A stretch of 34,105 nucleotides of DNA from Luteitalea sp. (GTDB lineage Bacteria; Acidobacteriota; Vicinamibacteria; Vicinamibacterales; Vicinamibacteraceae): contig WHTT01000069.1 in NCBI GenBank assembly GCA_009377605.1, forward strand, positions 1 to 34,105, read 5' to 3'. The position numbers and the translations under genes were made by a program. Each line of letters opens with the position of its first letter. Position 1 is the stretch's first letter. Shown here piece by piece: positions 7,401 to 32,697 of this stretch. Below the pieces are notes generated by a model. It searched no databases. It saw nothing but the letters and a program-made list of their open reading frames with translations, and was not told where the DNA came from.

Positions 7401-7652
7401 ATCGCCCGGCGCATCGAGCAGATCAGCGGTGAGCTCCTGGCGGTGAATCACGGCACGTTGTACCCGGTCCTTGCGAAGCTCGAGCAAGAGGGGTGCATCA
7501 CCACCGAGTGGGGCGCCTCGGAAAACAATCGTCGCGCGAAGTTCTATCGCATCACGAAAGCAGGCCGACGGCAGCTCGAGTCAGCGCGACAACACTGGGA
7601 GCAGACAACTGACATCATCGCGAAGTTCTTCGCATTGAAAGTGGGGACGTGA
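7401..7652 (+). pseudogene. PadR-family transcriptional regulator lacking its N-terminus
   Basis: The last 83 codons of a PadR winged-helix repressor: IARRIEQISGELLAVNHG, TLYPVLAKLEQEGCI (recognition helix and wing), WGASENNRRAKFYRITKAG and the C-terminal helix LESARQHWEQTTDIIAKFF. PadR proteins of this group normally begin about 25-30 residues earlier with a DLLxGTLDLLxL-type helix; that part is absent and BNR-gene sequence lies in its place. The frame stays open upstream to a TTG at 7335, so a hybrid product is possible but would lack helix 1. The stop TGA overlaps the permease ATG (TGATG), the translationally coupled PadR-ADOP pairing typical of Acidobacteriota, which suggests this regulator once controlled the next gene. 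Confidence 0.75.
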
Positions 7653-10361
7653 TGAGACCTGTGCGTCGACTGTGGCGTCGCCTGTGCGAAACCCTGATCC
7701 CGTCCCCGCGAGACGACGAGCTCAGGGACGAAATCGAGCTGCACATCCGAATGCTGAGAGAGGAGAACATTCGTGCAGGCATGGAGCCCGATGAGGCACG
7801 CCGGGCGGCGGTTCTGAGATTCGGCAGCGTCGAGTCCACGAAAGAACAATGGCGTGACCAGCGCCGGTTGCCACTCATGGAAACCATCATCCGTGACGTG
7901 CGCCACGCGTGGCGCACCCTTCGACGCAATCCGGCCTTCGCGTCCGTGACTGTCGTCACACTGGCGCTAGGCATCGGGGCGACGGTGGCGATCTTCACCG
8001 TGCTCGAGGGCGTCCTCCTCCGGCCTCTCCCGTACGATCATCCGGAGCGTATCGTGTGGCTGTGGGAGAGCAGTCCGGACCGGGGCCTGGAGCGGTTCGA
8101 GGTGCTCCCCGGAAGCTTTCTCGACTGGCGCGAGCGCAGCACCGCGTTCGAGGCGCTGGCCCTCTACCGAACGACTCGTACGCTCGCCACCGCCCACGGC
8201 TCGACAGAGCGGCTTCAGATTACGTCCGGCTCGCCGGCGTTCTTCGGCGTCTTCGGCGCAGTCCCCGTCCTCGGTCGCGGATTCCTGCCCGAGGAGGGGC
8301 GGCCCACGGGAGACCGCGATCCGCGGGATTACTCCGGGCGTCTGGAGGTCGTGATCAGCCATCGGCTGTGGCAGCGGAAGTTCGCAGGCGATCCCGCCGT
8401 CATCGGCGAGCGTGTGACGCTCAACGGGGTCAGCGATCTCACGATCGTCGGCGTAATGCCCCCGGGCTTCGACTTTCCGGCCGGTACCGAGATCTGGGGT
8501 GAGGACATCCTGACGCGCGGGATGGGGCGGGGCGACCGCGGGTTCGATGCCATCGGCCGGCTGAAGCCAGGCGTGTCCATCGACCGGGCGCGCGCGGAGC
8601 TGCGCACAATTGCGCGGCAGTCGGCGGCCGACCATCCGGACACGAACGCGGGCTGGACCGTCGTCATGGAGCCCATGACGGAGGTGGTCGTCGGCAACGT
8701 GCGCCCGGCGCTCATTGCGCTCTTTGCGGCGGTCGTATGCCTGCTCCTGATTGCATGCGCGAACGTCGCGAGCGTGGTGCTTGCGCGCTCGACGGCGCGC
8801 CGGCAGGAGTTGGCGGTCCGGCTCGCGCTGGGCGCGACGCGCGGCCGCCTCGTTCGATCATCGCTTGCAGAAGGCCTGCTCACAACGCTCGCGGCGGGCG
8901 CGGTCGGCGTCCTGCTTGCGAACGTGCTGCTCGACCTCGCGCTCGCGTGGGCGCCGCCGGAGGTTCCGCGGCTGCAGGAGATTGGCATCAACTTCCGGAT
9001 CCTCGGCTTCGCGCTTGGTCTCTCGGTTCTGACCTCGTTCGTCTTCGCGCTTGCGCCCTGGCTCCTCTTCAAACGCGAGAACGCCGACGAGGGGTTGAGG
9101 AGCGGCTCGGCGCGGCTCGCCGCGCCCGGCCGCGTGCGCACGGGCGCCGTGCTGCTTGCCGCGGAGGTGGCGTTGAGCCTCGCGTTACTCTTCGGGGCGG
9201 GGCTTCTGATCCAGAGCTTCCTCCAGTTGAGAAACCGCGATCTCGGGATGGATCCATCGAACGTTTGGGTTGCGGAGCTGGCGGTCCCACTCGGCAGGTT
9301 CGCGCCGGCAGAGGGACTCCGAATCGGCGGACGGCCCGAATGGGAACGCCTAGCCGCCTTCTATCCCGAGATCCTCGACTATGTCCGGACGCTGCCGGGC
9401 GTTGGGTCGGCCGCGCTCGTCAGTGTGCCTCCCGGGGCGCGCGAGACGCCGGATTTCTTCAGGCACGGCCGCAGCTCCGGCGCTCAGCCGGACGCAGATC
9501 GCTGGCCGGCCATCGCGCAGGCCATCACGCCATGGTATTTCGACGTGCTCCGCGTTCCCTTGCTGCGGGGCCGCCGCTTCACGCCACGCGACCGCGCGAC
9601 GGAAGGCCGGCTGACCGGTACGGGACCCGTCGCGCCGGGCGTGGCGATCGTCAACGAGACCATGGCGGAGCGGTACTGGCCGGGCCGCGATCCGATCGGG
9701 CAGGACATCGTGCTTGAGGGGGAATCCTGGGTCACCTACCGCACCATCGTGGGCGTCGCTGCGGATGTCGTCCCGTCTCCCACAGCCTTCGACATTCAGC
9801 CCATCGTCTACGTGCCGCTCACCGAGCGCCGGCCGTCGCTCGCGATGACGCTGCTGGTGCGCGGCAGCCGGGACGGCGGGCCGGTGGGCAGTCTCCCGGT
9901 GGCCTTGCGGAGCCGCGATTCGGCCATGAGCGTGTCGGCCGTGCGTCCGCTCGAGAGCGTCCTGGGGCAGTCGCTCGCGGAGCATCGCTTCAGCACGGTG
10001 CTCGTGTTCGCCTTCGGTGTGCTCGCGCTGTTTATCACCGCGTGCGGCGTGTACGGCGTCGTGGGGTTCATCGTCTCGCAGCGGACGCGTGAGATCGGCG
10101 TGCGCGCGCCGGGAGGACGTGCTGGCACTGGTCGGCCGATACGCTGCACGCCCCGTGATTGGCGGCGTGCTCATGGGCCTGCTGGCGGCTTCCTGGGTGA
10201 GCCGGATCGTGGCAGGGTTCGTGTCCGGCGCTAAGACCGTCGATTCACTGGTGCTCGCCGCGACGGTGGTCGTGATTCTGCTCGTCGCCGCCCTGGCCGT
10301 GATCGCCCCGGCACGCGCCGCCGTCTCCGTAGACCCAATTCGGACGCTGCGCAGCGAATGA
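7652..10361 (+). pseudogene. ADOP-family permease, frameshifted in the C-terminal FtsX motif
   Basis: A full-length duplicated orphan permease with the N-terminal prefix domain (DDELRDEIELHIRMLREEN, RRAAVLRFGSVEST), then RHAWRTLRRNPAF, the first membrane helix, periplasmic core, first FtsX module (CANVASVVLARSTARRQE, LAVRLALGATRGRLV) and second core. In the last module the frame reads VVGFIVSQRTREIGVRA and then breaks. Sequence resumes in another frame with REDVLALVGRYAARPVIGG and finishes VDPIRTLRSE at 10361. Compared with the usual GVRxALGAxxxDVL wording, about 14 bases are missing near 10102-10110, removing the MALGA-type residues. Read as is, the protein ends at 10234 with a nonsense tail and lacks the last two membrane helices. 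GTG at 7649 is an alternative start. It overlaps the PadR remnant by one base. Confidence 0.82.
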
Positions 10362-14965: not shown

Positions 14966-16129
14966 TCAGTCTGATCGACGGCGCGCGATTTGGCTCAGCA
15001 GCGCGATGAGCCCGAAGTTCACGGCGACCAGCACGAAGACCCCTCGAAGGCTGATAGCCTCCGCCAACCGACCGGCCAGCCAGGGCATCGTCATGCCCCC
15101 GGTCAGCGCGGCCGTGAACAACAGCCCGAACAGGCTGCCCGAGCGCTCCGGGAATACTGAACCGGCCACACCCAGCACCGTTGGAAAGATGCCCGCTAGC
15201 GCCGCGCCGGTCAGGACCACACCGGCGATCGCCGCGGCTGGTGTGCGAGCGGAGGCGATCACGAGCGCGCCGACGATCGAGAGCAGGGCCGCGCCGAGGA
15301 TGAGCGCGTGCGGACTGATCCGAAGTAGCAGGCCGCTGAGCCCCACGCGCGAGAGCATCAGCGCACCCCAGTACGCAGCCAGCACGTACGACGCGGTGTC
15401 GACGCCAAGCGCCAGGTCGCGCGTCATGAACGCGGCGGTGTACCCGCCGAGCATGAACTCGTTCCCGGACTGAAAGAACAAGAGAACAGCCATCGTCACG
15501 ACGAGTGGCGAGCGAAAGAGCCGCGGGATGTGGGCAAGAGGCCATCCACGAGCCTGCTTGGGCGCGGGAAAACGAACGGACGCGATACCGAGTGCCGTCA
15601 GGGCGCAGAGGCCCGCCGTTCCCACGAGGAGTCCCGCGAACCCAAGCCGCGACAAGAGCGCACCGAGACTGAACGGCAGGAACACGGCGCCCACGCCGAA
15701 GAAGACGCCGAGGAGGTTGAGCGCGGCGGACTTCTGGCGAGGGTCCTCGTAGAGATCCGCGATGAGGGTATTGGTGCCGCCGTTCAACGCAGCCCCGCCT
15801 AAGCCCAGACAGACAGCGGCCGGCATCAGGTCGACAACGCGTGCGGCCGAGGCGATGGCGACGAGCGCCGCGGCCACCAGCGCGGATCCCACGACCAAGG
15901 GGAGCTTCAACCCGAAGCGGTCCACGGCCAACCCGACCAGCAGGCTCGTGACCAGCATCGCGCCGTTCATCACGAGAAACAGCGTGCCGATACCCGCCAC
16001 GTCCAGGTCGAGCCGTTCCGCAAGCATCGGCGCCACGGCCCCGACGATCGCCATGACGATGCCGAACAGGAACATGCCGGCACAGGCGGACGCAGTCAGC
16101 GCCGAGCGAGCCGCCGGAAGCGCAGGCAT
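14966..16129 (-). CDS. MFS transporter
   Basis: A 387-residue major facilitator with about 12 hydrophobic helices. The loop between helices 2 and 3 has the MFS motif A pattern, AVDRFGLKLPLVVGSALV. Further marks are GLGGAALNGGTNTLIADLYED in the first half and GAALAGIFPTVLGVAGSVFP in the second. The ATG overlaps the stop of the SIS gene (TGATG), so it is probably translated by coupling; GTG at 16165 would lengthen it inside that gene. As the last gene of the GntR-led operon it is the likely inner-membrane importer for the sugar the operon handles. The substrate cannot be read from sequence. Confidence 0.87.
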   Translation of the reverse strand: MPALPAARSALTASACAGMFLFGIVMAIVGAVAPMLAERLDLDVAGIGTLFLVMNGAMLVTSLLVGLAVDRFGLKLPLVVGSALVAAALVAIASAARVVDLMPAAVCLGLGGAALNGGTNTLIADLYEDPRQKSAALNLLGVFFGVGAVFLPFSLGALLSRLGFAGLLVGTAGLCALTALGIASVRFPAPKQARGWPLAHIPRLFRSPLVVTMAVLLFFQSGNEFMLGGYTAAFMTRDLALGVDTASYVLAAYWGALMLSRVGLSGLLLRISPHALILGAALLSIVGALVIASARTPAAAIAGVVLTGAALAGIFPTVLGVAGSVFPERSGSLFGLLFTAALTGGMTMPWLAGRLAEAISLRGVFVLVAVNFGLIALLSQIARRRSD

Positions 16130-16899
16130 CAGCGGACGACCGGATCTGGGTGTCGCTCGTACCACCTGCGTGTGTACTCGTCGAAGACCAGTCGGTTGTG
16201 ATCCTTTGCGACACCCGTGACATTCGGTGACACGAACGTCGTGAGATCGAAGCCCCTGGCGGCGAGCTGGGCACCGGTTTCTGCGACCAGCGACATCGCG
16301 ATGAAGACGGCGGCGATGGTCGAGCCCGCGGCGATCTTCTCGGGACGACCGACTTCTACCTGCGCGTCCTCCGGCGACACGCAGTTATCGAGGGCGAGGT
16401 CGGCGACATCGGACAGCGCTTTGCCGCTGGAATGGGTCACAGCGGCAACCTGTCCGTTCTCCAGGGAGGACACGGTGATCACCCGGGCGCCGCGCTCTCG
16501 GGCGTAGAGGGCCGCCTCGATGGGCGCCGCGTTCAACCCACCATGTGAGAAGACCACCATGCAGTCCTGTGCGCCGATCGGATAGCTTTGGAGGAACTGG
16601 GCGATGTACCCTTCGCACCGTTCAATCCACAGCAGCTCTCGGGCGCCGTGCGGGCCGATGACATTCGACCACATCAACCGCGGGTCGTACAGCGGATAGA
16701 AGCCGACGAAGCTGCCGTAGCGCGGAAAGACATCCATCACCGGGATGACCGAATGACCGCTGCCGAACAGGTACACACGGCCTCCGTTGGCAATGGTTGT
16801 TGCCAACATCTCCCCCGCGTGCCGCAGCGTCTCGAGCTCGGAGGTATGAATCCGTTCAAGAATGGCCGTGATACGTTCGTAATATCGTGTGCAAGACAT
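16129..16899 (-). CDS. SIS-domain phosphosugar protein (UPF0309-like)
   Basis: A 256-residue single SIS-domain protein resembling the UPF0309 group. Features in order: an N-terminal helix (YYERITAILERIHTSELETL), the nucleotide-like loop GGRVYLFGSGHSVIPVMDVF, the second SIS strand MVVFSHGGLNAAPIEAALYA, ITVSSLENGQVAAVTHSSGK, DVADLALDNCVSPEDAQVEV, and a C-terminal SPNVTGVAKDHN. SIS domains bind phosphorylated sugars as isomerases, etherases (MurQ) or regulators. Here it probably acts on the product of the neighbouring ROK kinase. A MurNAc-6-phosphate etherase-like role is attractive given the NamZ genes but unproven, since it does not look like canonical MurQ. It lies 17 bases downstream of the kinase gene and overlaps the transporter gene. 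Confidence 0.83.
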   Translation of the reverse strand: MSCTRYYERITAILERIHTSELETLRHAGEMLATTIANGGRVYLFGSGHSVIPVMDVFPRYGSFVGFYPLYDPRLMWSNVIGPHGARELLWIERCEGYIAQFLQSYPIGAQDCMVVFSHGGLNAAPIEAALYARERGARVITVSSLENGQVAAVTHSSGKALSDVADLALDNCVSPEDAQVEVGRPEKIAAGSTIAAVFIAMSLVAETGAQLAARGFDLTTFVSPNVTGVAKDHNRLVFDEYTRRWYERHPDPVVR

Positions 16900-16916: not shown

Positions 16917-17789
16917 TTAGATAGCGCCTCCGCGACAGGTGTCTAGCGCAAGACGCGCGGCTCCGAATAGCCCCGCGCGTCCGCCGAGCGCGCTCAGCTC
17001 AATCCGACAGTGAGCGGAGGCAATCGGTTGCGCCCAACGCGTCACCTCGGCACGAATCCGATCGAGCATCACATCCCCTGCACCTTCAATGAGCCCACCA
17101 CCAAGCACCACCATCTCCGGGTTGAAGGCGCTGACGAGATTGGCGACGCCCATGCCCGTGTAGCGGGTCGCCCGGTCCAGAATCTGGCAGGCCGAGCCGT
17201 CGCCGGATCGTGCGGCGGTCACCACCGGCTGTGCGTCGGTCGCACCCGCCGCGCGCGCCACAGCCGGACCAGCCGCTTCTGCCTCCCAACACCCGGTCGT
17301 TCGGTAGACGTCCTTCCATTCAGCGTCGAGCGCGAACCAGCCAGCCGCGCCCGCGATGCCGCGGGCGCCCCGGAGCAGTGCGCCGTCAGCGAGAATGCCG
17401 ACGCCGATGCCCGTCCCGATCGAGACGAACACCACGTGGCGCAGCCCGCGCGCGACGCCGAGCCAGGTCTCACCGAGCACGTAGCCTGACCGGTCGCTGT
17501 CGATGACGACCTTCGTGCGGAGCGCGCCCAGTAGCGCCTCCCGCAACGGGACTTCGCCCGTGCCCCAGAGATTCGGACACCACGCATAGCCGGTGTCCGG
17601 TGTGTAGATCCCTGGCACGATCACACCCACGGCAGCGACGTCACCTGACGTGCTGGCGATCGCGGTCACAGTCTCGTCGAGCGTCCGCGCGGACGGCAGC
17701 GTTCGGTGATGCGAGAGGCGTCCCTGCGCATCGACGCGCGCGATCGCTGTCTTGGTGCCTCCGACGTCCACCGCCAGCACGGTCGTCAC
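16917..17789 (-). CDS. ROK-family sugar kinase lacking the usual zinc motif
   Basis: A 290-residue ROK (actin-fold) kinase that would phosphorylate a hexose or amino sugar with ATP in the cytoplasm. The first phosphate loop is DVGGTKTAIARVD (8-20). The catalytic aspartate is probably D99 in VIDSDRSGYVLGE. SIGTGIGVGILADGALLRGA is the second nucleotide segment. In most ROK proteins the next part is EIGH followed by a CxCGxxGCxE zinc site. Here it is AGAAGWFALDAEW and then TTGCWEAEAAG, so the His and most Cys ligands are gone, as in some zinc-free ROK subgroups. The GTG start overlaps the glycosidase stop by three bases, so the two are coupled. An N-acetyl amino sugar is the guessed substrate from context. 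Confidence 0.85.
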   Translation of the reverse strand: MTTVLAVDVGGTKTAIARVDAQGRLSHHRTLPSARTLDETVTAIASTSGDVAAVGVIVPGIYTPDTGYAWCPNLWGTGEVPLREALLGALRTKVVIDSDRSGYVLGETWLGVARGLRHVVFVSIGTGIGVGILADGALLRGARGIAGAAGWFALDAEWKDVYRTTGCWEAEAAGPAVARAAGATDAQPVVTAARSGDGSACQILDRATRYTGMGVANLVSAFNPEMVVLGGGLIEGAGDVMLDRIRAEVTRWAQPIASAHCRIELSALGGRAGLFGAARLALDTCRGGAI

Positions 17790-20107
17790 GGTTCGCCGAT
17801 CCTCAGAACCTGGACGGCCGAGGGCTCGAGCGTGACGTTGAATCGGATGCCGTCCTCGTTGCGGCTCAGCGCGACAGGGCGCTCGGTCTCGAGATTCGTC
17901 CCGATGTGCTCGCCCGGCGGCAGGTGAAGCGACACGATGCCGGTCGCCGTCTCGTTCCCGTGATTGAAGACGAACACCAACACGTCGCGACCACTTTCCA
18001 GGTAGCGGACCTCGATCTCCGCGCCGGACACTGCGACGGGCCTCGTGACGCCAGCCCAGTCGAGCAGCCCATTGTAAAAGCGTTCGACCGGCTCGGTCGG
18101 TGTGCTCTGATAGGCGGCGCTCACATACGATCCCACCATCAACGTCTCGCCGGTTCCATATGTGTTCGCGATCCCGGCGGACCGACCATCGGCAAACTTC
18201 GCAACGACGCGGGCGTCGGGTCCGAGCGGCGCCAGCGTTTCTTCGTACCACCGGGCTGGCAGCGCGTCGCCCGGCTTGACGCCTGACACCTCAGAGCTCG
18301 TCCACCGGATGTCGGTCCGACCGTCCTCGGCCGTCTGGACCGCTATCTCTCGGCACCCCATCACCTCCGACAGCCCAAGCCCTGGAATGCGCTCGGCGGC
18401 GAAGCCACGCTCGTTGTTCCACGCGAGGCGGGCTTCGGCCACCAGTCGGCCGCCGGTACGGACGTACTCACCGAGCACTGCCGCCGAGGCCTCGGGCACC
18501 ATCAGCGGGTAGGGAAAGATCACGAGCTTGTAAGGCCGGAGCTTCTCCGGCGAGACGTAATCGATGTGGACGTAGTCGAGTGGCACGTTCTGATGAAAGA
18601 GCGCGCGATGAACACCCAAGAGCGAGTCGCGTTCGATGCCAATCATCTCCCCTTGCGGGCCACCGTACTGCGTGGCCCGCTGCCGGCCGCCCACGAAATG
18701 CGACAGCGGATTGTAGACAACGGCCACCTCCGTTCGAGGCGGACGCGCTTCGAGGAAGTACTGCTGATACCGATCCACGACACGTGCGACGGCGCCAGCC
18801 GCCTTCGCGCGATCGGTAATCGTCCCGTCGAGCTGAATCAGCCCGAAGCCCCCCGATTCATAGCCGGAGCTCATTGGATACCACGCGTAGTAGTTGATGC
18901 CCTTGGCGCCGCGCGCGATGGCCGACCACGTCCACACCCGGAGGTCATCTGGCGTTACCGTGGGACTGACGTTGACGGCGATGGTGCCAAAGCCACCTTG
19001 CAGCTCACCAACCCAGAAGCCCTCGCGACCGTCGTCATAGCCGAAGGAGCGGGCGAAGTCGAGCAGCGCGGCGCGCCACGGCACGTCGCGATCAACGAAG
19101 GCCGAGTGCTTCGGATAGAACGACGTCCCATAGAAGTCGACGTGCTGGGCCATGGTCCAGTCATCCGCCTGGCCTTCCCAATGATGCGGAGACGCGAACA
19201 AGCCGACCCCGGCGGCATGACTGGTCACGACGGTACCGGGCGCCACCGCCTTGACCGCGTCGTAGCGGTCCTTCAAGTCTTCACCGAGCTTGTCGACGAT
19301 GAAGGCTTTCCAGTCGATGTAATCCGCGAATGACAGGATCGTGCTGATGCGGCTGGGCTCCACCTCTGCCCACGCAGAGAACCGCCGGTACCACGCGTCG
19401 TTCAACGCGTCGAGCGATCGATACTTCTTCCGGAGCCACTGGCGGAAGCGTCGCTTCGTGTGGGGGCAGAAGCAGAACTCGGGATTCGGGATCCACGTGG
19501 GGTTGGCCCAGTTGATGACATGCGGCTCGCTCCACAGGTCGAACCCGAGGAAGGCCGGACTCTGGACCGCCCGTTTCGCCAGCGCCGCATAGAAGGCGAC
19601 ATCCGCCGCGCGCACGCCCGCGTGGTCGCGACAATAGCCGGGTGAAGACTCCGGGTGTATCGCTTGGCCGTTGGAGGAGACGAACAGCGAATCGGGATAC
19701 TTCGCTCCGACCCATTCCGGTGCGGAATCCATGTACACCTGGAGCACGAGTTTCAACTGTTGTTCTTCGGCAAGCTCCAGCAACACGTCGAGCGTCTCGA
19801 AGCGATAGGTGCCTTCGACCGGCTCCCCGGACGCCCAGTCGATCCACGCCCGTACGGTGTTGAAGCCGAGCGTCTTGATGTGCCGGACGTCCTCGCGCCA
19901 GCGCGGCTTCTTTGCTCGTGCATCGCGCTCGAGCATGGGGGCGCGCGCCCGGCCGCCGCCGTACCACACCGCCATTGGAAAGAAGCGTGACGTCGACGAG
20001 CGGGTCGCGTTGCGCACGTTCTGGGGGACGCTCGCGGTCATCGCCCGGGCGCCGATCGTGGTGGGGACCATGGCGGAGAGCTTCAAAAAGTCGCGCCGTG
20101 GGATCAC
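17786..20107 (-). CDS. GH42-type beta-galactosidase-like glycoside hydrolase, Tat-exported
   Basis: A 773-residue exo-glycosidase of the GH42 fold. It begins with a twin-arginine signal (IPRRDFLKLSAM), so it acts outside the cytoplasm. The TIM barrel (about 40-430) contains the acid/base candidate E194 in DLWSEPHVINWAN, cysteines in EFCFCPHTKRRFRQWL that resemble the GH42 metal cluster, and the nucleophile candidate E368 in FWVGELQGG. A trimerisation-type Rossmann domain follows (LVIFPYPLMVPEASAAVLGE, VRTGGRLVAEARLAW), then a small beta domain with VFVFNHGNETATGI. The GTG start has GGAGG five bases upstream and sits two bases after the regulator stop. GH42 enzymes mostly cleave beta-galactosides; with NamZ next door another linkage is possible. 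Confidence 0.86.
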   Translation of the reverse strand: MIPRRDFLKLSAMVPTTIGARAMTASVPQNVRNATRSSTSRFFPMAVWYGGGRARAPMLERDARAKKPRWREDVRHIKTLGFNTVRAWIDWASGEPVEGTYRFETLDVLLELAEEQQLKLVLQVYMDSAPEWVGAKYPDSLFVSSNGQAIHPESSPGYCRDHAGVRAADVAFYAALAKRAVQSPAFLGFDLWSEPHVINWANPTWIPNPEFCFCPHTKRRFRQWLRKKYRSLDALNDAWYRRFSAWAEVEPSRISTILSFADYIDWKAFIVDKLGEDLKDRYDAVKAVAPGTVVTSHAAGVGLFASPHHWEGQADDWTMAQHVDFYGTSFYPKHSAFVDRDVPWRAALLDFARSFGYDDGREGFWVGELQGGFGTIAVNVSPTVTPDDLRVWTWSAIARGAKGINYYAWYPMSSGYESGGFGLIQLDGTITDRAKAAGAVARVVDRYQQYFLEARPPRTEVAVVYNPLSHFVGGRQRATQYGGPQGEMIGIERDSLLGVHRALFHQNVPLDYVHIDYVSPEKLRPYKLVIFPYPLMVPEASAAVLGEYVRTGGRLVAEARLAWNNERGFAAERIPGLGLSEVMGCREIAVQTAEDGRTDIRWTSSEVSGVKPGDALPARWYEETLAPLGPDARVVAKFADGRSAGIANTYGTGETLMVGSYVSAAYQSTPTEPVERFYNGLLDWAGVTRPVAVSGAEIEVRYLESGRDVLVFVFNHGNETATGIVSLHLPPGEHIGTNLETERPVALSRNEDGIRFNVTLEPSAVQVLRIGEP

Positions 20108-20109
20108 GC

Positions 20110-20856
20110 CTACCTCCGTGCTCGTGGAGTCGTCAGCTCCAGGACAACCTTGTATCGGTCGCCTCGCATGACTGACTGGACGTACTCGAGCGGTCGCCCG
20201 CTGGCCAGATAGGTTACTCGCTCAGCGACAAGACCTGGCGAGCCAGGCGCGACGCCGAGCAGCTCTGCCTCCCAGGTGCTGATGAGCACCGCAACGTGGG
20301 TTTCCCGTGCGCGTGCGGGGTAGAGGCTGTAGCGGGACGAGAGGAGCGCGTACAACGAGACGGATGGGGCGAAGTTGATCTCCTCGATGCCAGGAACCGA
20401 GGCCATAGGAATGTACGCGGTCTGGACTCCCATCGGCTCCCCGTCTGCGAGGCGCAGTCGACGGAGGCGGAAGACCGGCTCGCTGGAGGACATTCCCAGC
20501 GTCGCGGCGACGTCTGCAGGTACCTCGATCGCGCCCTGGTCGAGCACTTCGGAGGTTGACGGCAGCCCGCGGCGGCGCATTTCGTCGGTAAAGCTCGTGA
20601 GCTCACGGGGCCCCTGCTCGAGCGGAGGGCGCTGAACAAACGTCCCGCGGCCCTGCTCGCGGCGGATATAGCCGTCGTGGGCGAGCTCTTGCAGCGCCTG
20701 CCGTACGGTGATCTTGCTCACCTGAAACCGAGCCATGAGCTCCTGTTCGGTCGGGAGCTGGTCATCCGGCTTCCAACGCCCGGCATCTATCTCCTTCAAA
20801 ACCAACGTCTTGAGTTGGTGATATAGGGGAATCGGCGCGTTGCGGTTGACAGTCAT
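20110..20856 (-). CDS. GntR-family regulator, HutC subfamily (UTRA sensor domain)
   Basis: A 248-residue repressor or activator. Residues 9-75 form the GntR winged helix (PLYHQLKTLVLKEIDAGRW, LPTEQELMARFQVSKITVRQ, GYIRREQGRGTFVQRPP). Residues 85-240 are a UTRA ligand domain (VFRLRRLRLADGEPMGVQTA, TYLASGRPLEYVQSVMRGDR), which in NagR/DasR-type proteins binds sugar phosphates such as GlcNAc-6-P. It is the first gene of the reverse-strand operon, two bases ahead of the glycosidase gene, and it diverges from the first namZ-like gene. A perfect inverted repeat overlaps its own ATG, which predicts autoregulation together with control of the opposite arm. The effector is probably a phosphorylated product of the pathway (inference). 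Confidence 0.9.
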   Translation of the reverse strand: MTVNRNAPIPLYHQLKTLVLKEIDAGRWKPDDQLPTEQELMARFQVSKITVRQALQELAHDGYIRREQGRGTFVQRPPLEQGPRELTSFTDEMRRRGLPSTSEVLDQGAIEVPADVAATLGMSSSEPVFRLRRLRLADGEPMGVQTAYIPMASVPGIEEINFAPSVSLYALLSSRYSLYPARARETHVAVLISTWEAELLGVAPGSPGLVAERVTYLASGRPLEYVQSVMRGDRYKVVLELTTPRARR

Positions 20857-20878
20857 TATATCGTCCGCTTATTATAAT
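20846..20878 (+). promoter_or_regulatory. Sigma70-like promoter for the first namZ-like gene
   Basis: TTGACA (20846-20851) matches the -35 consensus exactly. TATTAT (20870-20875) follows after 18 bases, and the consensus TATAAT (20873-20878) after 21 bases. The first spacing is the more usual. The patch is strikingly AT-rich against its surroundings. The eight bases ATTATAAT (20871-20878) are a palindrome, so a -10-like element also faces the regulator gene. Confidence 0.55.
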
Positions 20879-20881
20879 GAC
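20852..20881. promoter_or_regulatory. Probable operator: perfect 9-bp inverted repeat between the divergent arms
   Basis: GTCATTATA (20852-20860) and TATAATGAC (20873-20881) are exact reverse complements separated by 12 bases, so arm centres are about two helical turns apart. The left arm overlaps the ATG of the GntR gene (20854-20856). The right arm covers the -10 region of the namZ-side promoter. A dimeric GntR/UTRA protein bound here could shut off both arms. Binding is inferred from position and symmetry. Confidence 0.6.
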
Positions 20882-20927: not shown

Positions 20928-22154
20928 TTGAGCGCGCCCGGCACTGCCATGCACCGTCTGTTCATTCTGGGCTTGCTTGCGCTTCAGCTGTTCTCGAGCC
21001 GAGCGGCTGCTCCGGCCCCGAGCCGCGTCAAGACGGGCCTTGACGTTCTGGTTGAACGGCGCTTCGCGCCGCTGGCTGGTCGCCGTATTGGGCTGCTGAC
21101 GGCTGAAACGGCCATCACACAGGATCGGCGACGAGCGATTGATGTGCTGGCGGAGGCGCCGAACGTGACGTTGGTCGCGATCTTTGCGCCCGAGCACGGA
21201 CTCTCCGCAACGCGGACCGGGGACATCGACGACAGCGTGGATCAAGCGACGGGTGTTCGCGTTTACAGCCTGTATCAACGGGGACGCGGCCGGCCTACTC
21301 CCGAGATGCTGAAAGGTCTGGATGCGCTCGTGTACGACATCCCGCAGTTCGGTGCGCGGTTCCTCACGCGAATAACGCTACTCGGCTATGGCATTGAGGC
21401 CGCTGCGCGACAGCGCATTCCCGTCTATGTGCTCGACCGGCCTAACTTTATCAATGGCGTGGACGTGGCGGGGCCGTTGCTGGACGACAACCATACATCG
21501 TTTGTCGGCTACATGCGCCTACCTATCCGCCACGGTATGACGGCTGGTGAGCTCGCGTTGATGGCCAACGGAGAAAAGCAGCTTGGCGCCGATGTGCGCG
21601 TCATTCGGATGGAAGGGTGGAAGCGGGCGATGTGGTACGACGAGACCGGGCTGGAGTGGATCAATCCGTCTCCGAACATCCGGAATCTCACGCAAGCCAT
21701 CCTGTATCCCGGCGCGTGCCTGCTGGAGTCGGCGCACGTTTCGGTCGGTCGAGGTACCGATACGCCGTTCCAGATCGTGGGTGCCCCGTGGTTTCGCGCG
21801 AAAGAGATCGCGGCTTATCTGAATGGCCGACAGCTGCCAGGTGTGCGTTTCATGACGAGGCGATTTCGCCCGTCAGCGTCGGTGTACGCCGGTGAGGAAT
21901 GCGAAGGGTTGGACATTCTGTTAGTGAATCGGGAGGTGTTCGACCCGGTGCTGATGGGATTGGAGCTGCTTGCCGCTGTGCTCAGATTTCATCCCGGCGA
22001 CTTTCAGCTTGCGTCGGTGATGCGCCTTCTGGGGAACGACGAGGCAGCCGCTCGGCTTCTGCGCGGTGAGACGGGGCGCGAGATTCTCACCGCGCAGCGT
22101 CACGAGCTCGACGAGTTCCTGCGCATCCGCGCCAAATACCTGTTGTACGAGTGA
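20928..22154 (+). CDS. namZ: NamZ-like exo-beta-N-acetylmuramidase (DUF1343, GH171), paralogue 1
   Basis: A 408-residue exported DUF1343 protein. The characterised member, Bacillus NamZ, removes terminal MurNAc from peptidoglycan chains. After a signal peptide (FILGLLALQLFSSRAAA) come the conserved FAPEHGLS (E89-H90), SLYQRGRGRPTPEML, VYVLDRPNFING, LPIRHGMTAGELALMANG, WINPSPNIRN and HVSVGRGTDTPFQIVGAPWF (270-289). Two family segments are altered: the usual DIQDVGxRFYTY is DIPQFGARFLTR (137-148), and the GLFG after EHG is GLSA. So the GRGT loop is kept and the DIQDVG loop is lost, the reverse of paralogue 2. TTG is the likely start, with GAGG eight bases upstream; ATG at 20949 is the alternative. 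It leads the forward arm. Confidence 0.87.
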   Translation: MSAPGTAMHRLFILGLLALQLFSSRAAAPAPSRVKTGLDVLVERRFAPLAGRRIGLLTAETAITQDRRRAIDVLAEAPNVTLVAIFAPEHGLSATRTGDIDDSVDQATGVRVYSLYQRGRGRPTPEMLKGLDALVYDIPQFGARFLTRITLLGYGIEAAARQRIPVYVLDRPNFINGVDVAGPLLDDNHTSFVGYMRLPIRHGMTAGELALMANGEKQLGADVRVIRMEGWKRAMWYDETGLEWINPSPNIRNLTQAILYPGACLLESAHVSVGRGTDTPFQIVGAPWFRAKEIAAYLNGRQLPGVRFMTRRFRPSASVYAGEECEGLDILLVNREVFDPVLMGLELLAAVLRFHPGDFQLASVMRLLGNDEAAARLLRGETGREILTAQRHELDEFLRIRAKYLLYE

Positions 22155-22185
22155 GTCTCGCATGCGTGCGCGTGCGGACCGCCCA

Positions 22186-22224
22186 GTGACATGGCGCTGT
22201 GACATGATGCTGTGACACGGCTTC
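22186..22224 (+). repeat. Three tandem 13-bp repeats upstream of the TonB receptor
   Basis: GTGACATGGCGCT, GTGACATGATGCT and GTGACACGGCTTC follow one another without a gap. A further GTGACA appears at 22246, where its GTG is the receptor start codon. The units are direct repeats, not inverted ones. They fill much of the 91-base gap after the first namZ-like gene and may be a regulatory array or a slippage product. Confidence 0.6.
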
Positions 22225-22245
22225 GGTGGGAGGGGGGGTAAGACG

Positions 22246-25200
22246 GTGACAAGGAGAGATGTCCAAACAGTCTTCGGTGCCTTCGTGGTGACCGCGACCT
22301 GCGCCGTTACGTTGCACGCACAGTCGATCACCGGCACCGTCACGGGCAATGTCAGCGACACGAGCGGCGCCGTTGTCCCGAGAGTGGAAATGAGTCTGAT
22401 CAACGCCGATACAGGCGTGGTGCGAACCGCCAGCAGCGACGAGCGTGGAAACTTCCGATTTCTGTTGGTGCCGCCAGGAGAATATGCGGTTGAGGCCTCG
22501 CTGCCGGGCTTCAGGGCGTTCCGCCGAGCGGGCATTGTGGTGGAAGCGGACCGCTCCTTGGCAGTCCCCGTTCAACTGGAGGTGGGCGAGCTCGAGCAAA
22601 CGATTGAGGTGCAAGCTGGCACGCCGCTGCTCGAGACCAACACCTCCTCGCTGGGCACGGTCGTCGATGAACAAAAGATCGAATCCTTGCCGCTGCTGGG
22701 GCGCAACCCGACGGGCTTGGCGAACCTGCTGCCCACCGTACGAGGCATTGGGTTCTTCGGCGGGCCGGTGCTCTCCACGTGGCGCCTCGCGGGCGTGACG
22801 ATTGGCGGCGGCGATCCGCTCTCGAGCAGCACCCTCGTCGACGGCATGGCCATGGACAAGATGCAAGATGGCGGCGCGCTGGTCCTGCCGACGGTTGAGG
22901 GCACCCGGGAATTCAAAGTCGTGACCAATGCCATGTCAGCCGAATTCGGGCGCACGGCGGGCGGCATCATGAGCATCATCACGAAGGCGGGAACCAATGA
23001 CTTCCACGGGAACCTCTTTGAATATCTTCGGAACGACGCGTTCAACGCGAACGAGTTCTTTGCCAACAAGAATGACCAACCCAAACCGAGGCTTCGCTGG
23101 AACCAGTTCGGGGGGAGCCTTGGAGGGCCCGTATTCAGAAACCGCCTCTTCTTCTTCGGAACCTACGAGGGTTATCGCGAGCGGCGACAACAGCAGACGA
23201 CGCTGACAGTCCCCACCGAACGCCAACGCCGAGGAGACTTCTCGGACACCCGCGCGAGCAATGGCGATCCCATCGTCATTTACGACCCGTTGACCACACG
23301 GCCCGATCCCGAACGCCCAGGCAACTTCATCCGTGACCCGTTTCCGCGGAACGTCATTCCCGAGGATCGTCTGGACCCCGTCGCCCAGGCCGTGCTGGAT
23401 TTCGTTCCATTGCCGAATGTCCCTGGGTTACCGGTGACCGGAGCGGAGAACTTCTTCGCGAGCGCCGGCGTGCCGATTGACAAGCACAGCATCAACGTAA
23501 GACTGGACTATAACCTGACGTCTTCTCGCAGGCTGAGCGGTCGATACATCTACGAGAAGATTGACTGGGGTTTCGCCAACTTCTTTGACACGATCGCCGG
23601 CGAAGATGGGCGGAACATTCTCGTCCCCCGCCACAGTCCGTTCCTTCAGTACACCGACACGCTGTCTCCGACGTTTCTGATCGACGCCAAAGTTGGCTTC
23701 ACCTATGAGAACGAGCATTGGACCGTGCCTGCGGCCGGCTTCGATGTCACCTCCATTGGCATGCCGGTGCAGTTCCAAAACGACAGGCAGAAGAACGGCG
23801 ACGGCTTTCCGCGATTCAGCATTGCTGACGCCACTACCTTTGGCAGGCCGAATGCCGCTGGAAATCCTTCCACGACCGGCACTGCGAGTGTGGCGCTGAC
23901 CAAATTGTTTGAGAGGCATAGCCTGAAGTTTGGCTACGAGCATCGAGTGTACCGGAGGAACGAGCAGATCACGTCGAACCCCTCTGGCACGTACAGCTTC
24001 ACGCGGGGGTTCACACAGGGTCCCGATCCACTCCAGGCAAGTGTGACGGCAGGGTATGGCGTGGCGTCGTTCCTCGTGGGCCTTCCAGCGAGCGGCTCGG
24101 CGGGATGGAGCACGGATACGACCAGAAGCTTGCACTATGACGCGGTCTTCATCCAAGACGATTGGAACGTCTCCCCCACGGTGACGTTGAATCTGGGTCT
24201 ACGGTGGGAATATGAAGGGCCAGTCAAGGATCGCTTCAATGTGCTGTCGAATTTCGATCCCACGATCCCCTCGCCGTTGGAAGTTCCTGGGCTTGACGTG
24301 GCGGGAGGTCTCGTCTTTCCAGGCGAAGACGTCCCGAGGGGACTGACGGAACCGAGCTATACGAATGTCGGCCCTCGATTCGGCTTCGCGTATCATCCCT
24401 TCGAGAAATCGGTCCTGCGCGGTGGCTATGGAATTATGTACATTCCAACAACCGGCACAGGTTATCCGACCACCGGGTTTAGCATTACCACACCAATGGT
24501 CACCACCCTCGATGGAGGAGTGACGCCACACGACGATCTCAGTGACCCATTTCCCGATGGCATTATCAGGGCGCCTGGGGCGAGCCAGGGCGTGCTGACC
24601 GGCATCGGGACCAGTGTGGCGGGTCAGCTGCGGGATGTGCAGCGTGGCTACTCGCAGCAGTGGAACCTCACGATTCAGCATGAGCCGTGGGACGACTGGC
24701 TTATCGAGGTTGCGTATATTGGCAACAAAGGGACACGTCTACAACGCTCACAGGCGCTGAATTTCCTGTCGGAAGAAGACCTCGCCCTCGGCAATCAGTT
24801 GGTGGAGTCGGTGCCGAATCCCTTCTTCGGCATCATCGAGACCGGACCGTTGAATGGGGAAACCGTTCCTCGAGAGCAACTGTTGCTGCCCTTCCCGCAG
24901 TTCACGGGCGCGTCGGGCGGCGTGGCCTTCCGCGGCAACTCGATCTATCACGCAGGGACCCTGAAAGTGGAGAAGCGCTTCTCAGATGGCTTCTCGCTCC
25001 TCATGGCCTACACGAAGTCGAAGCTCATTGACGACGGCAGGATCGCGAGCCGCCCGGGATCGACCGCGGGGACCGGCGTGCAAAACTGGAACAATCTCCG
25101 GGCGGAGCGCTCGAAGAGTCTCGAGGATGTGCCACAGAGAATGGTCCTGGCGACGAGCTGGGCGCTGCCGTTCGCGCAGGACGGAGATGGTATCCTGCGC

Positions 25201-25650
25201 CATCTCGTGGGTGGGTGGCAGATCAACACGATCACGACCATCGAATCGGGGAGGCCGATATCGCTCAGCGCACCGGTGACCGGACCAGGTACGCGGCCGA
25301 ACGCCGTCCCCGATGCGGAGGCGAAGCTGGACGACCCCACCCTGGAGCGCTGGTTCAATACCGACGCCTTTGCGCTGCCGGAGCCATTTACCTTTGGCGA
25401 TGCCCCAAGAACGTTACCAGACGTGCACAGCGACGGATTGTTCAGGATCGACCTCTCGTTGTTCAAGACCTTTCCGATCGCCGACCGATACAGACTGCAA
25501 TTCCGGGCCGAGGCGTTCAACCTCACGAATACGCCAACCTTCGATACCCCTGGGCGGAGCCTTACGGGTACGACGTTTGGCGTCGTCACGGCAACGACCA
25601 TGGAAGGCAGACCGAGAGAGCTGCAGTTTGCGCTGCGCCTGGACTGGTAA
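22246..25650 (+). CDS. Oar-type TonB-dependent receptor with carboxypeptidase-regulatory domain
   Basis: A 1134-residue outer-membrane transporter. The signal ends around TLHAQS. Residues of about 28-115 form a CarboxypepD_reg-like beta-sandwich (GTVTGNVSDTSGAVVPRVEM, GNFRFLLVPPGEYAVEASLP). A TonB plug follows (LGTVVDEQKIESLPLLGRNP, MSAEFGRTAGGIMSIITKAG), then a long beta-barrel with repeated girdle motifs (NLFEYLRNDAFNANEFF, LNLGLRWEYEGP, RFGFAYHPFEKSVLRGGYG). It ends FALRLDW with the aromatic residue expected for BAM assembly. There is no SusD-like lipoprotein nearby, as usual for this acidobacterial type. The GTG start follows a G-rich ribosome site. It sits between two NamZ-like genes, so its ligand is probably a large glycan or muropeptide fragment they work on (inference). 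Confidence 0.9.
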   Translation: MTRRDVQTVFGAFVVTATCAVTLHAQSITGTVTGNVSDTSGAVVPRVEMSLINADTGVVRTASSDERGNFRFLLVPPGEYAVEASLPGFRAFRRAGIVVEADRSLAVPVQLEVGELEQTIEVQAGTPLLETNTSSLGTVVDEQKIESLPLLGRNPTGLANLLPTVRGIGFFGGPVLSTWRLAGVTIGGGDPLSSSTLVDGMAMDKMQDGGALVLPTVEGTREFKVVTNAMSAEFGRTAGGIMSIITKAGTNDFHGNLFEYLRNDAFNANEFFANKNDQPKPRLRWNQFGGSLGGPVFRNRLFFFGTYEGYRERRQQQTTLTVPTERQRRGDFSDTRASNGDPIVIYDPLTTRPDPERPGNFIRDPFPRNVIPEDRLDPVAQAVLDFVPLPNVPGLPVTGAENFFASAGVPIDKHSINVRLDYNLTSSRRLSGRYIYEKIDWGFANFFDTIAGEDGRNILVPRHSPFLQYTDTLSPTFLIDAKVGFTYENEHWTVPAAGFDVTSIGMPVQFQNDRQKNGDGFPRFSIADATTFGRPNAAGNPSTTGTASVALTKLFERHSLKFGYEHRVYRRNEQITSNPSGTYSFTRGFTQGPDPLQASVTAGYGVASFLVGLPASGSAGWSTDTTRSLHYDAVFIQDDWNVSPTVTLNLGLRWEYEGPVKDRFNVLSNFDPTIPSPLEVPGLDVAGGLVFPGEDVPRGLTEPSYTNVGPRFGFAYHPFEKSVLRGGYGIMYIPTTGTGYPTTGFSITTPMVTTLDGGVTPHDDLSDPFPDGIIRAPGASQGVLTGIGTSVAGQLRDVQRGYSQQWNLTIQHEPWDDWLIEVAYIGNKGTRLQRSQALNFLSEEDLALGNQLVESVPNPFFGIIETGPLNGETVPREQLLLPFPQFTGASGGVAFRGNSIYHAGTLKVEKRFSDGFSLLMAYTKSKLIDDGRIASRPGSTAGTGVQNWNNLRAERSKSLEDVPQRMVLATSWALPFAQDGDGILRHLVGGWQINTITTIESGRPISLSAPVTGPGTRPNAVPDAEAKLDDPTLERWFNTDAFALPEPFTFGDAPRTLPDVHSDGLFRIDLSLFKTFPIADRYRLQFRAEAFNLTNTPTFDTPGRSLTGTTFGVVTATTMEGRPRELQFALRLDW

Positions 25651-25699
25651 GGGACGGTCAACGTTGAAGAGCGTTTGAGAGCAACGTGGAGGACGAGGG

Positions 25700-26917
25700 A
25701 TGAGGCCAAAGAGCGTCAGCGTTATGGGGCTGCTTGCGTTTCTCGCGCTCGGCACCGCAGCCCTGGAGAGTGCCGACCCGGTCAAGACCGGTCTTGATGT
25801 GCTGGTCCAGCAAGATTTGGCGCCGCTCAAGGACAAACGCGTCGGTGTGATTACGAACCACACGGCCGTCACCGTCGACCGCCAGCACATCGTCGATGTG
25901 CTGGCGAACGCGCGCGACGTGAGCCTCGCCGCGATCTTCACGCCGGAGCACGGGTTGTTCGGCGACCGCCAAGGGGCAATCGAATCGGGTGTCCACAAGC
26001 CGACCGGTGTGCCGATCCATAGCCTCTACCAGACTGGCTCGCACCGTCCCACGCAGAAAATGCTGAAAGACATTGACGCGTTGGTTTTCGACATCCAGGA
26101 CGTCGGCGCGCGCTTCTATACCTACATTACGACGCTGGGGTACGCCATCGAAGCGGCTGCAGAGGCCGGGATACCGATCTACGTGCTGGACCGGCCGAAT
26201 CCCATCAATGGTCTCAGCGTGGAGGGGCCGCTCGCCGACGAGCACCATCTGCGCGAGAGGCCGTTTGTCGCCTACATGTCCATGCCCATCCGCCACGGGA
26301 TGACCGTGGGGGAGCTGGCCCGCATGTTCAACGCGGAGCAGCAAAGTGGCGCGGATCTTCAGGTCGTCGCCATGAAGGGATGGAGGCGAAGCATGTGGTT
26401 CGATGAGACCGGCTTGGAGTGGGTGAACCAATCGCCCAACATCCGAAGCCTGACCCAGGCGACACTCTACCCGGGCGTCTGTCTCCTGGAAGGCCGGATC
26501 GTCTGGGTGAAAGGTGGCGCCGGGACCCCATTCCAGATGATCGCAGCCCCGTTCTTCAACGCCCGCGAGCTCGCCGCCCACCTGAACGAGCGCGGCATCG
26601 CCGGTGTTCGCTTCGTGCCGCGTCGCTTTCGGCCCACCGATGGCGTGTGCGCGAATCAGGTCTGTGATGCGATTGAGATACTCCTGCTTGACCGCAATGA
26701 TCTCAACGCTGTGACGCTCGGCATTGAGCTCTTGGCGGCGGTGACGCGTTTCCACCCAGACCAGTTCGACATCACGGCCATCGACCGGCTCCTCGGCAAC
26801 GAGGCCGCCGCGCGCCGCATCAAGGCGGGCGACGACCCCCGCAGCATCGTGGCCAGTTGGGAAGGCGACCTGACCGCGTTCCGGAAGCTGCGATCCAAAT
26901 ACCTGCTGTACCAATAA
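25700..26917 (+). CDS. namZ: NamZ-like exo-beta-N-acetylmuramidase (DUF1343, GH171), paralogue 2
   Basis: A 405-residue exported DUF1343 protein that starts 49 bases after the receptor, with GGAG and GAGGG just upstream of the ATG. The first half is canonical: FTPEHGLFGDRQGAIESGV (E83-H84), HKPTGVPIHSLY, DIQDVGARFYTYITTLGYA (131-149), YVLDRPNPING and PIRHGMTVGELARMFN. In the second half WVNQSPNIRS and LYPGVCLLEG are normal. The family loop that reads VSVGRGTDTPF in paralogue 1 is VWVKGGAGTPF here (268-278), so the Arg and the GRGT sequence are gone through several point substitutions. Both chains end RxKYLLY. Activity of either paralogue alone is uncertain; joint action or divided substrates are possible. 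Confidence 0.87.
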   Translation: MRPKSVSVMGLLAFLALGTAALESADPVKTGLDVLVQQDLAPLKDKRVGVITNHTAVTVDRQHIVDVLANARDVSLAAIFTPEHGLFGDRQGAIESGVHKPTGVPIHSLYQTGSHRPTQKMLKDIDALVFDIQDVGARFYTYITTLGYAIEAAAEAGIPIYVLDRPNPINGLSVEGPLADEHHLRERPFVAYMSMPIRHGMTVGELARMFNAEQQSGADLQVVAMKGWRRSMWFDETGLEWVNQSPNIRSLTQATLYPGVCLLEGRIVWVKGGAGTPFQMIAAPFFNARELAAHLNERGIAGVRFVPRRFRPTDGVCANQVCDAIEILLLDRNDLNAVTLGIELLAAVTRFHPDQFDITAIDRLLGNEAAARRIKAGDDPRSIVASWEGDLTAFRKLRSKYLLYQ

Positions 26918-27000
26918 TCGGGTCGGCGCAGGAATAGCATCGCCTCGGTATTCCACTCTGGTCGAGGGGTTGTGGATACCGCAGTGGAGGTCTTTTGCTC

Positions 27001-27697
27001 ATGTCATCAAAGGTCATGGCTATTGCCGCTCACCCTGGCGATGCCCTGTTTACAATGGGCGCCCCCGTGGCCAAGAGCGTCCATGACGGCGGCGCAGGCG
27101 TCTTCGTGAGCCTGACGGTGGGAGAGAAGGGGAACCCTGAGAGCATCCCCTCGGACAAGTATGGCGACATGCAACGGGACGCCACCGAGAAGGCTGCCAA
27201 AGTGCTTGGTGCGGAAGTTGAGTTTGCTTGGGTACCCCGACGCTGAGCTGCCAGCTGACGAGGGGGCGGCCCTCAAAGTCTGCAATGTGATTCGTAAACA
27301 CAAGCCGGCCGTGGTCATCACTCACTGGAGTGGTAGCTGGCACAAGGACCACCAGAACTGCCACATAATCGTGCGAGACGCGGTGTTTTACGCGGCGCTG
27401 CCAAGGATCGTTCGCGCCCAGCCCCCGCATCGGGTCGAGAAGCTGTTCTTTGCCGAGAACTGGGAAGACGCGTCGAACTTCGAGCCGGATACGTACCTGG
27501 ACATCACCCGGGTCTACCAGACGTGGTTCGACGCCTGTGACCTGTATCCCATGTGGCGTGGACAGACCGGCTTTTTTCGGTATCACGACTATTACGCCAG
27601 CCTCGCGACCATGCGCGGATGTCTTGCGGGATTCAAGTACGCAGTGGCACTGATGCGTGATCCGAACCAGCGGCGGTCTAGCGTGCAGTCGCTGTGA
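27001..27697 (+). pseudogene. PIG-L/LmbE-family deacetylase, interrupted by a single-base frameshift
   Basis: A zinc-dependent N-deacetylase of the PIG-L/LmbE family; members act on GlcNAc-type sugars. The first frame gives MAIAAHPGDALFTMGAP (the AHPxD metal motif), VSLTVGEKGNPES and AAKVLGAEVEF, then runs into a stop at 27246. The second frame continues seamlessly with LGYPDAELPADEGAALKVC, VVITHWSGSWHKDHQN (zinc histidines in HKDH), IIVRDAVFYAALPR and FFAENWEDASNF, stopping at 27697. Removing one base, most simply the G at 27226, restores a full enzyme of about 230 residues. The ATG has GGAGG 10 bases upstream. It follows the second namZ-like gene by 83 bases on the same strand. Sequencing error would be an equally simple explanation. 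Confidence 0.8.
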
Positions 27698-30990: not shown

Positions 30991-31285
30991 GGACCAGTCG
31001 CCTGGAGCCGTACCAGGTGCTCGTAGGGAGAATCAATTAACCTCGGCTTCAGCACCGCCTGTGCTGTGTGACTTTCCGCAATCGACGCCCCGCCGAAGGC
31101 GCTCATCTTCGACCTCACGCGTGCCGCGCCAGATGCAAGTGTCGCTGCGGATTCAGTTCTGATCTCGAATCACGCCGACGACCATCGTCGCAGCTCTCTG
31201 GTTACACTGGCGGTGGGCTGATGGACCGAGCGACGTGGTGCGAACCCTGTCGGGGCGCACGCGCCAAATCCAAGCAGGAGGACCG
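30991..31285. other. Stretch without recognisable genes
   Basis: I see no protein similarity on either strand and no convincing promoter or terminator here. It ends with AGGAGG at about 31275-31281, the ribosome site for the decayed DUF4038 copy. Confidence 0.4.
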
Positions 31286-32241
31286 ATGCAGAAGGCGAAG
31301 AGTCTCCCCCTGGTCCTGGTACTCGCGTGTGCCACGGCGACAGCGGGCCAATCCGACCCTGCCCATCCTCCAGCCGGTTCCGAGGCCCAGCAAACATCGC
31401 AGGAGACGCTGCCGCCGCTGAAAGTCCACCCGGACCGCCGCTATCTCATTCGTGCGGATGGTACGCCGTTCCTGTATCTGTCCGACACGGCCTGGGAGCT
31501 GTTTCATCGGCCGAGTCGAGAGCAGGTTCGAGCATACCTCGAACTGCGTGCTCAGCAGCGCTTCACGGTGATCCATGCCGTTGCGCTCGCGGAGTTGGAC
31601 GGCATCCACGACCCCAATGTGTACGGTGACCTTCCCTTGATAGATAAGGATCCCGCGCGCCCGGCCGTCACGCCTGGAGCGAATCCGCAGAATCCACAGG
31701 AGTACGATTACTGGGATCACGTCGACTACATCGTGGACGAGGCGAACCGGCTCGGCCTGTACGTGGCGTTCCTCCCGACCTGGGGACGGTGGCTGGGCGT
31801 CAACCCACAGCGCGACGAGAAGATCCTCACGGCGCAGAATGCGCAGGCCTACGGCGAGTTCCTGGGAAAGCGCTACGGCAAGAAAGCGATTATCTGGGTG
31901 CTCGGCGGTGACCGGACGGCGCAGGGATTCGAAGACGTCTGGCGCGCCATGGCAAAAGGGATCGTCATCGGCATCGCCGGACGTGAAGACTACGACACCG
32001 CGCTCACCCCGGCGGTGGCCACACCTCGTCCACCTGGTTCCATACAGACCAATGGCTGGACGTCAACATGCAGCAGACAGGGCGATGCCCCGTGCCCTCC
32101 GTTTTTACGGAGCTCATGCGTGAGGTGCTCGCCTTCCGTCCGTACCGCAGCACCTCGAGCCAGCCTCACTTGGCACTCGCGAGCCTCTCGCGTCCCTCCA
32201 CCGAATACTCGCTGTTCGTGTTCGCCGAATTGCACGTTTGA
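31286..32241 (+). pseudogene. DUF4038 glycosidase, second copy, frameshifted and truncated
   Basis: A close paralogue of the enzyme at 3495, with a strong AGGAGG site, a signal peptide with a lipobox-like LVLAC, and a nearly identical barrel start (DGTPFLYLSDTAWELFHR, YWDHVDYIVDEANRLGLYVA, WVLGGDRTAQGFEDVWRAMA). After REDYDTALT the frame breaks. The same protein continues in another frame as GGGHTSSTWFHTDQWLDVNM then QQTG. By comparison with the intact copy, ten bases (coding for part of TYH) are missing near 32006-32008. Similarity stops for good at about 32082, so the second half, including the region of the candidate catalytic glutamate (E295 in the intact copy), is gone. The shifted frame ends at 32241 with unrelated residues. 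Confidence 0.8.
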
Positions 32242-32697
32242 TACACGACCGCGTCTGAGCTTACGACCCGCGCCAGATTAGGGTGAGTTCCTCCAGTTCT
32301 ATTCGCGTGAGTTGCCGCTTGGTCTCGCGCGGGCCCAGCCGAAACAGGTTCAAGGACCTTGCGTGCAGTGCCGGCAAGTGATAAGCTCATGCGCATAAAC
32401 AACATAGAACTATAAATACGCGGTGGTTCGCCTGTCCGGCAGGGCGGAGCGCACGTCGCCGGCACCGTTGCGCAGTACGTAGGCGACCGGGCCGGGCGCG
32501 CGGTTCGACCAGCGGTGATACGGCCCGGGGCAGGCACTTCCAGCCACTCGATGCGCGAACGCGTCCGGGCGCCAACGCGTCCGACCGTCTCGTCTCTCTT
32601 CACTCTCGAGAAACGCGGGAAGAAAGACGTCTCGGCCGCTCGACGCCGTCCCAGCACCCGACGGACCACGGGCTCAGATCGGAGGGAGGGTTCGATC
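32242..32697. other. Intergenic region ahead of the second TonB receptor
   Basis: No coding sequence is recognised in these 456 bases. An AT-rich patch at about 32380-32420 contains TATAAA (32411-32416) and may hold the receptor promoter, but I cannot pair it with a good -35. A strong GGAGGGAGGG ribosome site lies just before the receptor ATG. Confidence 0.4.

Follow-up and report, generated by a model that had tools for sequence, protein, structure and literature searches.

The locus described here raises the question of why two NamZ paralogues that flank one outer-membrane receptor gene have each lost near-invariant loop residues that the other retains. The window, the whole stretch of 34,105 nucleotides analysed, is contig C69 of a Luteitalea sp. 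genome of 6.79 Mb that carries five NamZ genes in total. A preliminary description of this DNA had proposed reciprocal motif loss between the two paralogues, P1 and P2, and we find both reading frames full length with the motifs as quoted: read from the sequence, P1 carries DIPQFGARFLTR together with VSVGRGTDTPF, and P2 carries DIQDVGARFYTY together with VWVKGGAGTPF.

Two NamZ genes around a receptor gene

P1 (408 amino acids; 20928..22154, + strand) and P2 (405 amino acids; 25700..26917, + strand) are ~54–55% identical and are full-length members of the NamZ family (GH171, DUF1343), which comprises NamZ_N (PF07075) and NamZ_C (PF20732). In both proteins the Pfam matches lie above the gathering cut-off and span the whole of each profile, with 238.4 bits for NamZ_N and 145.6 bits for NamZ_C in P1, and 264.1 and 130.9 bits, respectively, in P2. 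The start codon of P1 is TTG, with an alternative ATG at 20949. On the same strand, between the two genes, lies a TonB-type outer-membrane receptor gene of 1134 codons with CarboxypepD_reg and OMP_b-brl_4 domains (22246..25650, + strand; OMP_b-brl_4 768.6 bits), separated from P1 by 91 nt and from P2 by 49 nt. No terminator-like sites above chance are found between the three genes. Among the ten best matches to the receptor, this gene counted, none has a NamZ gene within ~1.5 kb except the one in the window.

Both proteins begin with a signal-peptide-like segment, and neither sequence shows a lipoprotein cysteine there. The short gaps on either side of the receptor, together with the loss of near-universal residues from each copy, could mean that P1 and P2 are both non-catalytic glycan-binding proteins serving the receptor, SusD-like in role, not by homology. 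We consider this improbable, given that neither N-terminus has a lipoprotein cysteine and that both proteins retain the invariant carboxylates along with most of the site.

Loops altered in one copy and intact in the other

For comparison we used NamZ proteins from 60 relatives and then a phylum-wide sample picked to include weak scorers; the resulting 184 sequences also take in three relatives from viral contigs and two solved structures, with P1, P2 and their closest relative, L161, excluded. The NamZ_N loops TNHT, DxQDxGxRxYTY, DRPNP and xEGP are intact in P2 and altered in P1 at N59A, D140Q, Y146L, P174F and E181A. In the first loop (TNHT to TAET), Ala59 (21102..21104, + strand) replaces an asparagine present in 156 of 182 sequences; the column is otherwise mostly histidine, and alanine occurs nowhere else. 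The second P1 loop, DIPQFGARFLTR (residues 137–148; 21336..21371, + strand), has Gln140 and Leu146 where 168/184 and 172/184 sequences have aspartate and tyrosine, both replacements being unique against the 184, and its P2 counterpart, DIQDVGARFYTY (residues 131–142; 26090..26125, + strand), is intact. The preliminary description had treated the whole DIQD change in P1 as loss; the aspartate and tyrosine substitutions bear this out, whereas the accompanying change of glutamine to proline (DIPQ) is nothing unusual, with proline in 9 of 185 sequences. Further along, in the P1 segment DRPNF...VA (residues 170–181; 21435..21470, + strand), the unique Phe174 stands in place of the DRPNP proline, which is invariant in all 184 other NamZ, and Ala181 in place of the xEGP glutamate (167/184).

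Conversely, the xSxGRGTxxPF loop is intact in P1 (VSVGRGTDTPF, residues 271–281; 21738..21770, + strand) and is VWVKGGAGTPF in P2 (residues 268–278; 26501..26533, + strand), altered at S269W, G271K, R272G and T274A. Trp269, Lys271 and Gly272 of P2 are unique among the 184 NamZ and fall at columns at least 90% conserved. Where P2 has Lys, Gly and Ala, the GRGT glycine, arginine and threonine are present in 182, 181 and 181 of the 184 others, and four residues past PF, Ala282 (26543..26545, + strand) replaces a near-invariant glycine (182/184). A few natural NamZ that belong to a different subfamily also lack the GRGT arginine (4k05/BF0371, L165 and L194). Compared with the NamZ exo-β-N-acetylmuramidase, both copies share the two domains, the fold, the invariant D/E/H/R set, PEHG, RHGMT and SPN; P1 differs in NamZ_N loops that lack the Asn, Asp, Tyr, Pro and Glu, and P2 in lacking the GRGT Gly, Arg and Thr and the glycine that follows. 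The first-loop Asn, the DRPNP Pro and the xEGP Glu missing from P1, and the Gly at 282 and the GRGT Thr at 274 missing from P2, lie beyond the motifs first reported, and the domain-wise reciprocity extends past the original two.

That the loops are constrained is evident from near-universal columns such as the proline (184/184) and the arginine (181/184), and alignments of 106 and of 184 relatives rule out free variation. The retention of PEHG, RHGMT and SPNIR by both copies was also correctly observed, but that of PEHG says little, because its column (P2 residue 83) reads PQHG in 74/184 sequences, a large stand-alone NamZ subfamily, and the glutamate is therefore not universal. The odd motifs of P1 and P2 are in-frame substitutions. 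No alternative frame restores a lost motif, so a compensated frameshift or sequencing error is ruled out as their origin.

The losses partition by domain. With the NamZ_N boundary set at P2 residue 251 and columns at least 90% conserved in the 184 NamZ, losses private to P1 number six in NamZ_N and none in NamZ_C, against two and six for P2 (Fisher p = 0.0097, on 14 columns only). The order-level set gives 7/1 for P1 against 3/6 for P2 at 90% columns (p = 0.05) and 5/0 against 0/4 at 97% columns (p = 0.008), while stricter thresholds in the phylum-wide set return the same pattern at p = 0.07–0.08, the rise reflecting the few columns left. Nearly all other invariant columns are kept by both proteins, and the carboxylates invariant in the family (D131, D164, E205 and E264 in P2 numbering) are all present in P1 and P2, so neither can be called dead from sequence; P1, which retains each of them, may be active.

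AF2 models of the two proteins were built from five-row alignments (pTM 0.77 and 0.73, with low pLDDT in the motif loops). Both match the solved DUF1343 proteins over their whole length (335–373 residues, Z 31.6–38.2): P1 matches 4k05 at Z 37.4 and 4jja at Z 32.3, and P2 matches them at Z 38.2 and 31.6. All other VIA-align matches are of the common Rossmann-like kind only, and the N-terminal part (~41–248) resembles Rossmann-type domains at Z 8–9.5. Strands of the P2 model end at 52, 81, 131 and 163, just ahead of TNHT, PEHG, IQD and RPNP. On this model, the positions altered in P1 are thus predicted to sit in loops after parallel strands, the place of ligand binding in Rossmann-like domains, and the GRGT loop is located at the start of NamZ_C. 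Mueller et al., in the 2021 founding paper on NamZ, reportedly placed the active site in the cleft between the two domains. To our knowledge, neither the catalytic residues of GH171 nor what each domain contributes is yet well defined.

Complementary losses in different domains are also what one would expect if P1 and P2 assembled into a heteromeric enzyme, each supplying the half-site that the other has lost. This seems quite improbable, as each chain has both domains and the models match single-chain structures, and trans-complementation would need a composite site, not known in the NamZ family.

Descent of the pair and its nearest precedents

The closest relative of both P1 and P2 is L161, the single NamZ of a genome from another class of the phylum (G383), which is 58–60% identical to them. 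The three proteins form one clade (support 100/99; pairwise identity 54–60%). In contrast to P1 and P2, L161 has every motif intact: it keeps TNHT, PEHG, DIQDIGARFYTY, DRPNP, VEGP and VSVGRGTDTPF, and it has no loss at any of the 47 columns conserved at 95% or more. It follows that the ancestor had the motifs intact and that P1 and P2 have since lost different sets of residues. Inside the trio, P1 groups with L161 at support 93/48, and a grouping of P1 with P2 is not rejected (p-AU 0.69). The L161 gene (278–1606 of its 3.3-kb contig) adjoins a neutral ceramidase-like gene, not a receptor.

No orthologous P1/P2 pair was found in 162 genomes of the order, 193 of the class, 396 of the phylum or 38 of the class of L161, and we therefore reject the idea that the pair forms a more widely conserved cassette; a wider scan of genome contigs returned one short fragment only. 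The other three NamZ genes of the Luteitalea genome are intact and come from ordinary vertical subfamilies, so the window pair would have been free to diverge. In one of the NamZ genes of this genome (L001/L245:6077-8641), a serine β-lactamase-like domain (PF00144) is fused to NamZ, and the long NamZ frames (~800–1000 amino acids) present in most of the order's genomes seem to share this fusion. The fusion gene in this genome adjoins another outer-membrane-type receptor-like reading frame, and receptor–NamZ linkage may thus recur.

The presence of three intact NamZ genes elsewhere, the lack of an orthologous pair in the 162 order or 193 class genomes and the frameshifted genes nearby (see below) would each fit relaxed selection, or the early decay of a redundant and possibly acquired pair. 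Such decay is nevertheless very unlikely: both reading frames are intact over ~400 codons, and the losses are clustered and complementary, not scattered, with most invariant columns kept. The retention in both proteins of the other invariant columns, the invariant carboxylates and a full-length fold argues for continued selection, and the location of the losses in different halves suggests that an ancestral job was split or changed. The functional divergence of the duplicated pair put forward in the preliminary description is well supported by the complementary domain-wise losses, the intact ancestor and the conservation of the rest of both proteins.

Bacteroides fragilis likewise has two NamZ in its genome, BF0379 (4jja) and BF0371 (4k05), with close locus-tag numbers. 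As with P1 and P2, the GRGT loop is intact in one (BF0379) and altered in the other (BF0371, VGVGY, with the arginine lost). The B. fragilis pair differs in that BF0371, a member of a divergent subfamily, has further changes (SPH, LYGLT) and keeps its NamZ_N loops, and in that BF0379 gives no sign of reciprocal loss. Two NamZ occur in Tannerella forsythia as well; we are not aware that its NamZ1 and NamZ2 show complementary motif losses of the P1/P2 kind. NamZ1 and NamZ2 are reported to have distinct substrate specificities (title of reference 8 of PMC10465942). The B. fragilis and T. forsythia pairs come closest to a precedent for a possible division of labour between two NamZ.

Neighbouring genes and the probable roles of the two copies

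Divergent from P1 runs a set of genes on the − strand: a GntR/UTRA regulator (20110..20856; UTRA 139.7 bits, GntR 71.4 bits), a GH42-type glycoside hydrolase (17786..20107; Glyco_hydro_42 170.4 bits), a ROK-family sugar kinase with an approximate start (16917..17960; ROK 153.8 bits on 16917–18251), a SIS protein of the NagS/UPF0309 subfamily (16129..16899; NF002805 245 bits, cut-off 135) and an MFS transporter (14966..16165; MFS_1 97.5 bits). The best PDB match of the ROK kinase is glucokinase 3vgk, with N-acetylmannosamine kinases lower in the list. The SIS protein is not MurQ (MurQ model 21.9 bits vs 302), and no MurNAc-6P etherase lies next to the window NamZ genes. It aligns with NagS (PDB 9eol), and in that alignment the essential NagS residues His53, Arg64, Glu94 and Asp179 (PMC12680351) appear to be conserved. 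NagS orthologues have been described as restricted to Streptomycetaceae (PMC12680351); the window SIS protein is a NagS-type homologue outside that family. In this genome MurQ maps to a different contig, where its neighbours are a glucosamine-6-phosphate isomerase-type gene, a BadF-type kinase and an SSF transporter. With a NagS-type SIS protein here and MurQ elsewhere, the locus in the window is one for amino sugars, though not the canonical locus for MurNAc.

The divergent promoter region between the GntR gene and P1 holds a perfect inverted repeat, GTCATTATA-12-TATAATGAC (9-12-9; 20852..20881), of which no equivalent arose in 100 shuffles of the window. The repeat overlaps the start codon of the GntR gene, as well as promoter-like sites of either strand, which makes it a candidate GntR operator and suggests joint control of both sides by the GntR protein. 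On the far side of P2, a PIG-L type deacetylase gene (26918–27697) lies in two frames that change near 27240, owing to a pseudogene or an assembly error. An apiosidase-like gene (31235–32281) and an ABC-permease-like gene (7649–10234) have apparent frameshifts near their 3′ ends, and the contig may accordingly contain indel errors, or several of its genes may be decaying.

The reading we favour, tentatively and with a probability of roughly 45%, is a subfunctionalised, secreted and receptor-linked NamZ pair within a locus for amino-sugar scavenging. On this view P2 is probably a glycosidase whose recognition has changed, and P1 is probably impaired or serves only in binding. The two copies diverged from one intact ancestor and would now be exported and co-expressed with the outer-membrane receptor in a putative operon. 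Because P2 keeps the strand-end loops of NamZ_N and has a rebuilt GRGT loop, in which the lysine one residue earlier may supply the charge of the lost arginine, it most likely remains a glycosidase, one that recognises the acidic or aglycone part of its substrate differently. P1, with its NamZ_C loop kept and several NamZ_N loops disrupted, is most likely catalytically impaired, and would either help to capture glycans or act on another substrate. The released sugar, presumably an amino sugar, would enter via the receptor and be handled by the products of the divergent MFS, ROK kinase, SIS and GH42 genes under the GntR regulator. The tight spacing, the divergent promoter region, the perfect 9-12-9 repeat and the amino-sugar neighbours (NagS-like SIS protein and ROK kinase) are in favour of this subfunctionalised pair.

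The same carboxylates, present in both proteins, also allow P1 and P2 to be two active exo-glycosidases of differing specificities, for instance for peptide-free versus peptide-bearing substrates or for non-muramic amino-sugar glycans. Natural NamZ with an altered GRGT arginine (4k05, L165, L194) would fit this, as would the T. forsythia pair, so far as the title of that work goes; so would the NagS-like SIS protein and the siting of the MurQ cluster on another contig, from which the window substrate may not be MurNAc. We regard two active enzymes as possible, if doubtful, since the change in P1 of a proline invariant in 184/184 NamZ, with several neighbouring loops altered, exceeds a typical specificity shift. 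A bolder version of the subfunctionalised pair, which we think unlikely, would have the two proteins repurposed as obligate partners of the TonB-type receptor, one a glycan-binding pseudoenzyme of GH171 fold and the other a glycosidase with a rebuilt recognition loop that acts on a non-muramic amino-sugar glycan. If true, the receptor module would be of a capture-and-cleave kind distinct from SusCD.

P1 and P2 are a real and clean natural experiment inside a known family. A pair with complementary near-invariant losses, alongside an intact close relative, offers a ready test of which NamZ loops serve catalysis and which recognition, and of how receptor-linked glycan uptake loci evolve.
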